From NCBI RefSeq assembly GCF_001488575.1, contig NZ_LN831302.1:1860001-1924000 (forward strand): a stretch of DNA of 64,000 bases, written 5' to 3'. Position numbers and translations under genes: made by a program. Numbering within the stretch: the stretch's first letter is position 1; every line of letters starts with the position of its first letter. Below, piece after piece: positions 10,505 through 51,185 of this stretch. Under the pieces are notes generated by a model. It was not told where the DNA came from and did not search any database. It worked only from the letters and a program-made list of their open reading frames with translations. The DNA comes from Halobacterium hubeiense (GTDB taxonomy: Archaea; Halobacteriota; Halobacteria; Halobacteriales; Halobacteriaceae).

Positions 10505-11130
10505 TTGAGGTGGTCTGGAACGACTGCTGTCTTGGTCTCGCCACGCGCCAGCGCCGTCTGCCCGGTCCGGGCGATCTCCCGGATGCCGAACTGCCGGTAG
10601 GCGTCGATGGCGTCGTTGATCTTCTGTTCGTCGCCGGTCAGCTCCACGGTAATCGTCCGCGGGCCGGCGTCGAGGGTCTTCCCGTTGTACATCTCCGTGA
10701 TGGCGTGGACCTCGTGGGGGCGGTCGGCGTCGACTTTCACCACCACGAGCTCGCGGGCCACCGCGTCGTCCTCGAGTTCGCGGACGTGGATGACGGGAAC
10801 GACCTTCTCTAGCTGTTTCTCCACTTGGTCGATGCCGGGGTCGGGCTCCTCGACGACGACCGTGATGCGCGCCCAGTCGTCGTTCTGGGTGTCCGCGACG
10901 GTCAGCGACTCGATGTTGAACTGCCGCCGGCTGAACAGCCCGGAGACGCGCGCGAGCACGCCCGGCTCGTGTTCGACGAGCGCGGAGATGACGGTCCGGC
11001 GCGGCGGGTGTTCGGCCTCCACTTCGGGGTCGACGCGGATGCCCTGGGAGTTCCGGCGGCCCTCGGGCCGCGGGCGGTCCTCCGGGGCCGGTCCCGGCAG
11101 GCCCTCTCGCTCGGCGTCTCGCTCGCTCAT
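10501..11130 (-). CDS. ilvN: Acetolactate synthase regulatory (small) subunit IlvN
   Basis: 209 residues. After about 40 polar residues comes the ACT domain [24 protein letters not shown]-type sequence with NIESLTV, then a C-terminal ALS small-subunit domain ([22 protein letters not shown]). ACT domains of this family bind valine for feedback inhibition. The ATG at 11130 overlaps the ilvB stop. The same frame stays open upstream as shadow sequence over ilvB. Confidence 0.9.
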
Positions 11131-12917
11131 AGGTGGTCCTCCGTGAGCGCGAACTGGCCGTTGTCGCCGCCCGAGGGAACCATCGGGTAGACGTCCTCGG
11201 TCGGGTCGATGTAGACGTCGACCACGGCGGGACCGTCGGTGGCCAGCGCTTCCTCGATGACCTCGGGGGCGTCGTCGTAGCCCTCGATGCGGAAGCCGTC
11301 GGCGCCGAACGCCTCCGCGAGCGTGTCGAACTTCGGCACCCACGGGTACTCGGAGGCCATCCGGCGGCCCTCGAAGAACGCGTCCTGCCACTGGCGGACC
11401 ATCCCGATGGCCTCGTTGTTCAGGATGAAGACGGTGATGTCCATCTGCTCGCGGACCGCGACGACCAGCTCCTGACACGTCATCAGGAACGACCCGTCGC
11501 CGTCGAAGCAGACGACTGACTGGTCGTCGTCGGCGGCGACGCGCGCGCCGATGGCCGACGGCAGCCCGTACCCCATCGCGCCGAGGCCGTGGGAGGACAC
11601 CCACGTCCGCGGCTCCGTGTACGTCCAGAACTGGCACGCCCACATCTGGTGTTGGCCGACGCCGGTCGTGACCACGGTGTCGCGGTCGGTCGCCTCGTCG
11701 ACGGCCTCCACGACGTACTGGGGTTTCAGCGGTTCGTCCTCGGGCGCCGCGTAGTCGAGGCGGTACTCCTGCTTCCACTCGCGGCACTGCTCGACCCACT
11801 CGCCTGTCTCCGGCGAGCCCGGCATCGCCTCGTCCAACTGGTCGAGGACGGTGCCGGCGTCGCCGATGAGCGGGTGGTCGGCCTCGACGTTCTTCGAAAT
11901 CTCGGCGGGGTCGATGTCCACGTGGACGACGTCGGCGTCCGGCGCGAACGAGTCGACGCCGCCCGTGAGGCGGTCGTCGAAGCGCGTGCCGACCGCCAGC
12001 AGGCAGTCGGTCAGCGTGATTGCCATGTTCGCGTAGCCGGTGCCGTGCATCCCCGCCATCTCCAGCGCGAGGTCGTGGTCCTCGGGGAACGCGCCGATGC
12101 CCGGCATCGTCGTCACGACCGGAATCTCGTGCTCGGTCGCGAACGCGTACAGCTCCTCGGTGGCGTCGCCCTTGACGACGCCGCCGCCCGCGAGAATCAC
12201 GGGCTCGTCGGCGTCCACGATGGTCTGCGCGGCGGCCGCGACCTTCTCGTCGTCCGCGCGCGTCTGCACGTCGACGGTGCCTGGAACCTTGGGCTCGACG
12301 GGGTCGACGTCGGTCTCGCCGGTCGTGACGTCCTTCGGCAGGTCGACGACCGTCGGCCCCTGTCGGCCGTGGTTCGCGAGCGCGAACGCCGTGCTCACGT
12401 CCTCGCCGACGCTGTCCGGGCTGGACGCGAAGTAGTTCGACTTCGTGATGGGCGTGGTGACGCCGACGGTGTCGGTCTCCTGGAACGCGTCGTTCCCGAC
12501 GAGTTCCGTGGGGACCTGACCGGTCAGCGCGACGACGGGCTCGGAGTCCATGTCGGCGTCCGCGAGCCCGGTCACGAGGTTCGTCGCGCCCGGGCCCGAG
12601 GTCGCCATGCAGACGCCGGGGTCGCCGCTGACCGCGCCGTACGCGTCGGCGGCGTGTGCGGCGCCCTGCTCGTGCGCCATCGTCACGTGCTCCAGCTCGG
12701 AGTCGTACAGCGCGTCGTAGACGGGCATGATGGCGCCGCCCTGCACGCCGAACACCGTCTCGACGCCCGCCGTCTCCAGCGACGCGACGACGGACTCCGC
12801 GCCCGTTCGCTTCGGCGTCTCGACCGCTTCGGCGTCGACTCCGTCGGCTTCGGTCGCCTCGCTTTCGGCGTCCGGCTCGGCGTCGCCGGGCTCGGTCACT
12901 GCGCGGTGGTCTGTCAT
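11127..12917 (-). CDS. ilvB: Acetolactate synthase catalytic subunit IlvB
   Basis: 596 residues, thiamin-diphosphate enzyme. An acidic N-terminal extension of about 35 residues is followed by [15 protein letters not shown], the catalytic glutamate in [32 protein letters not shown], and the ThDP/Mg motif [12 protein letters not shown]...[12 protein letters not shown]. It makes acetolactate or acetohydroxybutyrate from pyruvate (with 2-oxobutyrate). A GGGAGGGG run lies just upstream of the ATG, and the ATG overlaps the stop of a 14-codon ORF. A 250-nt leader separates it from leuA (see 13030-13101 and 13020-13041). Confidence 0.93.
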
Positions 12918-12958
12918 CGATACCCCTCCCGCGGTGTGGTGTGCGTGGACTGTGTCAT
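12914..12958 (-). other. 14-codon ORF abutting ilvB (possible coupling peptide)
   Basis: ATG at 12958 encodes [14 protein letters not shown] and stops in a TGA overlapping the ilvB ATG (CGATGA). The purine-rich GGGAGGGG inside it is the likely ribosome site for ilvB. It may be a true coupling peptide or chance; the composition is threonine-rich and not informative. Confidence 0.3.
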
Positions 12959-13019
12959 TGCGGATGCTGCGGTGGCTGTCGGTTGGTGGTGAGTCGGGTC
13001 GGTTCGTGGAGAAGTGATA

Positions 13020-13041
13020 GTAGGGGAGCTTACGCCCCTAC
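13020..13041 (-). promoter_or_regulatory. Leader hairpin upstream of ilvB
   Basis: On the minus strand GTAGGGG-CGTAAGCT-CCCCTAC forms a perfect 7-bp stem with an 8-nt loop. The loop contains the TAA stop codon of the short ORF at 13030-13101, so a ribosome finishing that ORF would sit on the hairpin. No clear T-run follows, so it is more likely a regulatory structure than a simple terminator. Confidence 0.4.
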
Positions 13042-13101
13042 GATACCGACGAGCGCACCGCTGCCCGCGAGAAAGACCGCGCGTGTGGCGTCGGGCAGCA
13101 T
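13030..13101 (-). other. Candidate leaderless leader peptide of the ilv operon (23 codons)
   Basis: ATG at 13101, TAA at 13030-13032. The peptide begins MLPDATRAVFLAG and ends ALVGIVGA: three Val, three Leu and one Ile among 23 residues. A TATA-like TTTATC (minus strand, 13132-13127) lies 25 nt before the ATG, the usual spacing for a leaderless haloarchaeal transcript. The last codons form the left arm of the hairpin at 13020-13041. Inferred as a branched-chain-amino-acid-responsive leader; no translation evidence is available here. Confidence 0.4.
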
Positions 13102-13126
13102 CGTGGCCCGAGAGTCGGGCGCGACC

Positions 13127-13132
13127 GATAAA
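13127..13132 (-). promoter_or_regulatory. TATA-like box for the ilvBNC-leuCDB transcript
   Basis: The minus strand reads GGCTTTATCGG. Its centre is about 26-28 nt upstream of the ATG at 13101, fitting a haloarchaeal TATA box with transcription starting at or next to that ATG. It lies between leuA and ilvB, so ilvB could be expressed independently of leuA. Confidence 0.45.
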
Positions 13133-13167
13133 GCCGTTGCTGGGAGCGCAATGCTTGTCGGCGGCCA

Positions 13168-14367
<1,200 letters not shown>

Positions 14368-14414
14368 CGGGCGCCTCGTTGTGAGACATCGTACCACTGT
14401 CGCGGAGCCCCGAC

Positions 14415-51000: not shown

Positions 51001-51185
51001 CCGGCGCCGCCCGCGCTCGGAATCCTCTTGTCCGTGGCTCCAGTACCGCCACGTGGCCGATGACGACGCAACCGGGCCGACCCGGGGTGGCTCCCGCGGG
51101 ACGACGAGCCCTATGAGTACCGAGGCCGACTCTCCGCTTCGAGTGCCGACGCGAGCGTGACCGACGCCCCATCGTATAACCATTG

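Follow-up and report, generated by a model that had tools for sequence, protein, structure and literature searches.

The genes for branched-chain amino acid biosynthesis in Halobacterium hubeiense include a minus-strand series in which leuA is followed by a leader element and then by ilvB, ilvN, ilvC, leuC, leuD and leuB, and the locus raises the question of what the element between leuA and ilvB does. Attenuation by a leader peptide is a textbook mechanism of bacteria, and the original prediction read this element as a bacterial-style attenuator adapted to leaderless mRNA. The window analyzed here is the whole 64,000-nt stretch of DNA, and its leader was compared with ilvB upstream regions throughout the order. 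IlvB relatives were found in 234 of the 243 genomes of the order. The first set comprised 88 regions upstream of ilvB, drawn from most families of the order, and 85 of them contain the leader motif; the remainder consists of L014, which carries a diverged version, L015, and L073, which was excluded owing to a chance-looking motif match far upstream. A hold-out set, obtained by scanning the proteins of a second collection, contained 80 named loci, 12 of which duplicate the first set, and added approximately 67 new genomes. Hairpin statistics were calculated for 152 relatives and codon statistics for 150 leaders; because the genomes are related, the locus counts given below do not represent independent events, and the shuffles ignore phylogeny.

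Leader reading frame, predicted promoter and hairpin

According to the open reading frames and their sequences and translations, leuA, which encodes a protein of the 2-isopropylmalate synthase type, occupies positions 13168–14397 and ilvB occupies positions 11127–12917, both on the minus strand. The parts predicted between them are all present on that strand exactly as described, namely a TATA-like box, an ATG, a 23-codon ORF, a 7-bp hairpin and a stop codon in the loop. The TATA-like sequence CTTTAT (13133–13128) belongs to a BRE/TATA-like element, CAACGGCTTTAT (13128–13139, minus), a predicted internal promoter assigned from the spacing of the hexamer across loci. The leader ORF, uORF1 (13030–13101, minus), has its ATG at 13101 and its TAA at 13032–13030, would encode the peptide MLPDATRAVFLAGSGALVGIVGA, and ends I-V-G-A-stop (ATC GTA GGG GCG TAA). 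A whole-genome pattern search found the leader motif as a single copy in this genome.

In most first-set loci, the TATA-like hexamer lies 31–35 nt before the uORF1 ATG, usually with a BRE-like CRAA stretch ahead of it, and the TATA element is present in 75 of 79 hold-out loci. This distance is that of a leaderless mRNA, and the internal promoter is probably used and uORF1 probably translated. An in-frame ATG without an intervening stop precedes the motif in all 85 first-set loci and in 77 of 79 hold-out loci. Aligned across the Halobacteriales, the reading frame, the leaderless spacing, the branched-chain codons and the stem are all kept, with few compensatory changes; the conservation of ORF and stem in relatives, on which the original prediction had staked itself, was found in the 85 first-set loci and again in the hold-out set.

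The length of uORF1 ranges from 18 to 43 codons across loci, and the frame ends in Ile-Val-Gly-Ala-(x)-stop, the motif of the 85 first-set loci being essentially AT(T/C)-GTA-GGG-GC or -GT. The stop codon lies at most 24 nt from the Ile codon in 70 hold-out loci, and most of the others have a slightly longer tail. With this Ile codon as position 0, the 150 leaders have Ile, Leu or Val at codons −2, 0 and +1 in 71, 100 and 100% of cases, respectively; position 0 is Ile in 149 of them, the Val at +1 is GTA in all 150, the Gly at +2 is always GGG, and +3 is Ala or Val. Branched-chain codons occur at frequencies of 7–25% at positions −12 to −6, compared with 71% at −2. The general richness in Val, Leu, Ile, Ala and Gly attributed to the ORF in the original prediction is not conserved, whereas the branched-chain codons at −2, 0 and +1, which lie just before or in the stem and are cognate to the products of the operon, are. 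Outside this terminal cluster the peptide shows no conservation, and substitutions between congeners fall on the three codon positions at 0.14, 0.17 and 0.19, without clear bias, compared with 0.06, 0.07 and 0.24 for leuA. Codon −2 interchanges among ATT, CTC, GTC, GTG and GTA; since its bases vary and its class is constant, it is the amino-acid class that is kept rather than the base sequence. GTA accounts for 2.4% of Val codons and ATT for 14% of Ile codons in seven genes of the window, and the GTA of uORF1 does not vary even in leaders that have lost its pairing partner, a constancy for which the stem alone does not account.

The hairpin (13020–13041, minus), assigned by RNAfold and conservation, has the last uORF1 codons as its left arm. 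In the window, GTAGGGG (13041–13035) pairs with CCCCTAC (13026–13020), and the loop CGTAAGCT contains the uORF1 stop codon, as is usual among the relatives. A core of at least five Watson–Crick pairs was found in 98.7% of the 152 relatives, versus 11% when the downstream bases were shuffled, with best stems of 5–9 pairs and loops of 3–10 nt. The right arm slides among loci with core complementarity retained, and the C-run that forms it follows the motif in almost all first-set loci and in all 79 motif-bearing hold-out loci. The 7-bp hairpin of the window was reproduced by RNAfold; the folding energy of this short segment is unremarkable relative to shuffles (z −0.9 to −1.6) and was dropped as evidence, so that the case for the hairpin rests on conservation. 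Covariation is scarce because the left arm is nearly invariant. A compensatory change from GGGGC/GCCCC to GGGCC/GGCCC occurred in L032 and, independently, in L014, whose diverged stem-loop reads GGGCC GCGAT GGCCC, and L261 has the compensatory stem GGUGC/GCGCC. Among 24 aligned members with a six-base loop, two pairs have changed on both sides, a number reached by 7 of 500 shuffles.

The stem is followed by a G-less, terminator-like C/U/A tract (13006–13019, minus), defined by base composition across loci. The frequency of G is at most 0.14 and mostly near zero at +2 to +14, after which G returns, and that of T climbs to 0.34–0.46 at +8 to +13 with no strong T-run. The tract is weak in comparison with a T5C-type terminator, and its T-rich part begins some nucleotides past the stem. 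In Haloferax, intergenic 3′ ends favor T-stretches followed by C, and one hairpin in a reporter terminated 59% of transcripts (PMC7237163); in view of this precedent, the hairpin with its C/U tract is plausible as a partial terminator. No antiterminator pairing for the ilvB leader is evident across families. Rfam covariance models gave no match in the window leader at the gathering cut-off or in L096 and L163 at E 0.1, and none of these three matched a T-box or riboswitch family. Elsewhere in the window, an sR-tMet C/D box RNA (RF02163, 64 bits) lies on the plus strand at 51055–51127. A long-range pairing of GCGGUG..GUCGG with CCGACAGCCACCGC, enclosing the hairpin, is predicted for positions 13070–12960 (minus) of the window and is not an order-wide feature.

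The overlapping orfX frame

The 250-nt gap described between leuA and ilvB does harbor the leader, but it is not empty, since an 84-codon frame, orfX (12914–13168, minus), recognized by its start and stop positions and its lack of internal stops, covers it from leuA to ilvB. The original prediction had missed this overlapping frame, and the locus looks different once it is taken into account. The leuA TAA stop (13170–13168) shares one base with the orfX ATG (TAATG), and the orfX TGA (12916–12914) overlaps the ilvB ATG. The frame is shifted by −1 relative to uORF1. Codon shuffles predict 29 stops for it in the uORF1 region, and none occurs; among loci of the majority phase, the stretch from the hairpin to ilvB is likewise free of stops over 2964 orfX-frame codons, against 57 and 22 stops for the two remaining frames. 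At nearly every first-set locus and at 77 of 78 hold-out loci, orfX opens with an ATG or GTG situated on the leuA stop or a few nucleotides from it, and its end forms ATGA at ilvB in 75 of 79 hold-out loci. The phase of orfX is kept in 69 of 85 first-set loci though the spacer varies from 67 to 289 nt, and over the control distance from leuA to uORF1 the phases are more mixed (44/24/11). Phase-shifted loci often have AGT as the second ilvB codon, a possible stop at +5 (9 of the 16, compared with 3 of the 69 main-phase loci); in the 85 loci, this Ser codon replaces AGC mainly where orfX is phase-shifted.

The orfX frame has no conserved amino acids, and its substitutions show no codon-position bias. 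Comparison with Pfam and NCBIfam gave sub-threshold matches only, and orfX as a conserved protein was rejected on these grounds. A programmed frameshift from uORF1 into the orfX frame was also considered and was dropped, as orfX is provided with a start of its own next to the leuA stop and no slippery site is evident. A further candidate, uORF2 (12914–12958, minus), begins at an internal ATG of orfX that usually lies 68–77 nt past the uORF1 stop and extends over 14 codons, ending at the TGA that overlaps ilvB. Although this ATG recurs, uORF2 was rejected as an independent gene, being the 3′ portion of orfX. Towards its C terminus (12958–12914 in the window, and in relatives), orfX often reads R-Y-R or P-Y-R-P (GTATCG), a small conserved island in a frame that is otherwise not conserved.

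In the AT-rich reduced genomes L260 and L261, uORF1, its V-G-A end and a stem are kept, with the Ile of uORF1 replaced by Phe or Ser, and orfX is absent in L260 and broken in L261. The loss of orfX with retention of uORF1 indicates that the two functions are separable, uORF1 being the more persistent element and orfX a dispensable bridge. The element is missing from the distant families f12 and f10, in which leuA abuts, overlaps or lies near ilvB (the coordinates of L267 and L268 being less clear); these junctions without the element (L266–L269) include one, L269, with a different, acidic small ORF in between. In Haloferax volcanii, overlapping genes are strictly coupled in translation, and a separation of about 20 nt nearly abolishes the coupling (PMC6728339, PMC10666635), so that an ORF bridging roughly 250 nt would restore coupling between leuA and ilvB. 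The leuA–orfX and orfX–ilvB junctions have the same ATGA- and TAATG-type overlaps as genes subject to termination–reinitiation coupling, and unlike the coupled genes of that work, orfX apparently encodes no conserved protein and seems only to pass ribosomes on (PMC6728339, PMC10666635). By these features orfX looks like a relay that keeps the translation of leuA and ilvB coupled, with the predicted promoter and, in another frame, uORF1 lying inside it.

Leaders upstream of pheS and trpS

In the portions of PMC4983044 drawn on here, H. volcanii uORFs supported by transcription start sites are reported to precede pheS (26 aa) and a tryptophan–tRNA ligase gene (23 aa), and pheS and trpS were examined because these uORFs are listed there. 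A leaderless uORF ending GFGFFFA-stop or similar precedes pheS. In this uORF, codons 4–6 (CCGAACCC) form a stem with those for GFG (GGGTTCGG); the stem covaries as CCGAATCC/GGATTCGG and CCGAGCCC/GGGCTCGG, and the Phe codons form a T-run after it. The pheS leader of the window's own genome (L181, G000:C1:28864+; relatives L172–L198) reads MASEPHAGRSARRVVAAPGFGFFFA followed by a stop. A second trpS is likewise preceded by a W-R-W uORF, which in the same genome (L204, G000:C1:2461572+; relatives L201–L214) reads MQSAPIGWRWRAPGADSLAAAA followed by a stop. A Phe-run uORF was found at 20 of 30 pheS, 0 of 30 trpS and 1 of 30 trpC loci, and a W.W uORF at 10 of 30 trpS, 0 of 30 pheS and 1 of 30 trpC loci; a leader at trpC was rejected, each type occurring there only once in 30. 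No Rfam family matched the sibling-leader loci tested. Separately, GGTGGAC followed at a distance by GNCGAAACCG recurs approximately 10–60 nt past the pheS leader stop and possibly belongs to a further structured RNA, which had no Rfam match at the loci tested. The existence of two siblings with cognate codons makes it unlikely that the ilvB leader is a chance arrangement or a one-off.

Possible attenuation mechanism and its alternatives

The features above favor, with a probability of about 70%, ribosome-mediated attenuation of the ilvB operon by branched-chain amino acid supply on a leaderless mRNA. The attenuator would be inserted between leuA and ilvB, and transcription from the internal promoter would give a leaderless mRNA whose 5′ end is the uORF1 AUG. 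With an ample supply of branched-chain aminoacyl-tRNAs, the ribosome could reach the stop codon within the loop and depart, whereupon the GUAGGGGC/GCCCCUAC hairpin may close beside the C/U-rich tract and RNA polymerase may stop or pause before ilvB. In a shortage of Ile, Val or Leu, it would stall at codons −2 to +1, just before or in the left arm; the footprint of the ribosome could hold the stem open, and ilvBNC-leuCDB would be transcribed, so that the operon is on under shortage. The geometry fits a hairpin whose formation is set by the position of the leader ribosome, and a separate antiterminator would be unnecessary in a scheme in which the ribosome covers the left arm. On the longer leuA transcript, ribosomes that enter orfX at the leuA stop would cross the same stem and arrive at the ilvB start, and termination–reinitiation coupling could thereby survive the insertion of the attenuator. 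On the short transcript, uORF2 may provide a de novo start.

Other explanations accommodate part of these data. The same leader and sensing could be retained with the hairpin acting on uORF2 or ilvB initiation or on RNA decay, or with the nascent ..IVGA peptide arresting the ribosome; the hairpin without a strong T-run, the near-invariant C-terminal V-G-A, and a uORF2 ATG that is usually 68–77 nt downstream and coupled to ilvB would all suit such a scheme. It is nevertheless judged unlikely, as the base-level constraint on GTA GGG GC together with a complementary right arm that slides points to RNA pairing, and arrest by the peptide sits poorly with the lack of conservation ahead of the last codons and with the replacement of Ile by Phe or Ser in L260 and L261. 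Far less credible is a role of the palindrome as a DNA operator bound by a regulator of transcription, such as one of the Lrp type, with uORF1 incidental: the repeat is nearly perfectly inverted and its half-site GTAGGGG is invariant, but an arm spacing that varies with loops of 3 to 10 nt is unusual for a dimer site, the conserved ATG, frame and Ile/Leu/Val codons would be left unexplained, and cognate leaders exist at pheS and trpS. Hardly any weight is given to the view that orfX, coupled to leuA and ilvB and encoding a small protein, is the only gene here, with uORF1 and the TATA element as by-products of its sequence. The conserved ends and stop-free frame of orfX agree with it; the missing codon-position bias, the absence of a significant Pfam or NCBIfam match, the persistence of uORF1 where orfX is absent (L260) or broken (L261), and an ATG at leaderless distance that would serve no purpose in the orfX frame speak against it.

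The attenuation reading can be placed among known leaders. In the enterobacterial pheM-pheST, pheL and ilv leaders, runs of cognate codons (Phe for pheS) stand ahead of synthetase or biosynthetic operons. The haloarchaeal leaders share the cognate codons and the position before such operons; in contrast to the enterobacterial ones, the ilvB leader shows no alternative antiterminator, and the Phe codons of the pheS leader themselves constitute the T-run after a covarying stem. Short ORFs with Ile, Val and Leu codons also precede ilvB in Actinobacteria (PMC1262725) and ilvB-II in Corynebacterium (PMC10272879), and in Actinobacteria these codons overlap a candidate terminator hairpin (PMC1262725). 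The haloarchaeal leaders differ from them in being archaeal, in their leaderless start, TATA/BRE promoter and stop codon usually in the loop, in the C/U tract that replaces a poly-U run, and in being nested in an overlapping relay ORF. A similar ilvB leader of Streptomyces coelicolor was unresponsive to the replacement of codons (PMC1262725), so that layout does not prove function. Among the uORFs in long 5′-UTRs of H. volcanii in the portions of PMC4983044 drawn on, the pheS and trpS cases are shared with the present set and ilvB does not appear, and those portions describe neither codon content nor a hairpin nor any regulatory interpretation for the two. The main texts of the H. volcanii papers on transcription start sites, 3′ ends and processing sites contain neither ilv nor leuA. 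A full-text search of open-licence literature found no case of archaeal leader-peptide attenuation, in line with the earlier statement that no characterized haloarchaeal example was known.

At the level of layout, the original reading of a bacterial-style attenuator on leaderless mRNA is supported by its conservation and by the cognate pheS and trpS siblings. It also appears more likely than not that leaderless leader-peptide attenuators form a general class in haloarchaea (ilvB-leu, pheS and trpS), which would be the first ribosome-mediated attenuation in Archaea and of which the ilvB member would be nested out of frame in a relay ORF without a protein of its own. If so, the first ribosome on leaderless haloarchaeal mRNA would be coupled to RNA polymerase tightly enough for sensing, and the ilvB, pheS and trpS leaders would provide three ready reporters for measuring such coupling in vivo. 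The locus would also represent a new use of overlapping frames, in which an ORF is kept open only to ferry ribosomes past an internal promoter and an attenuator.
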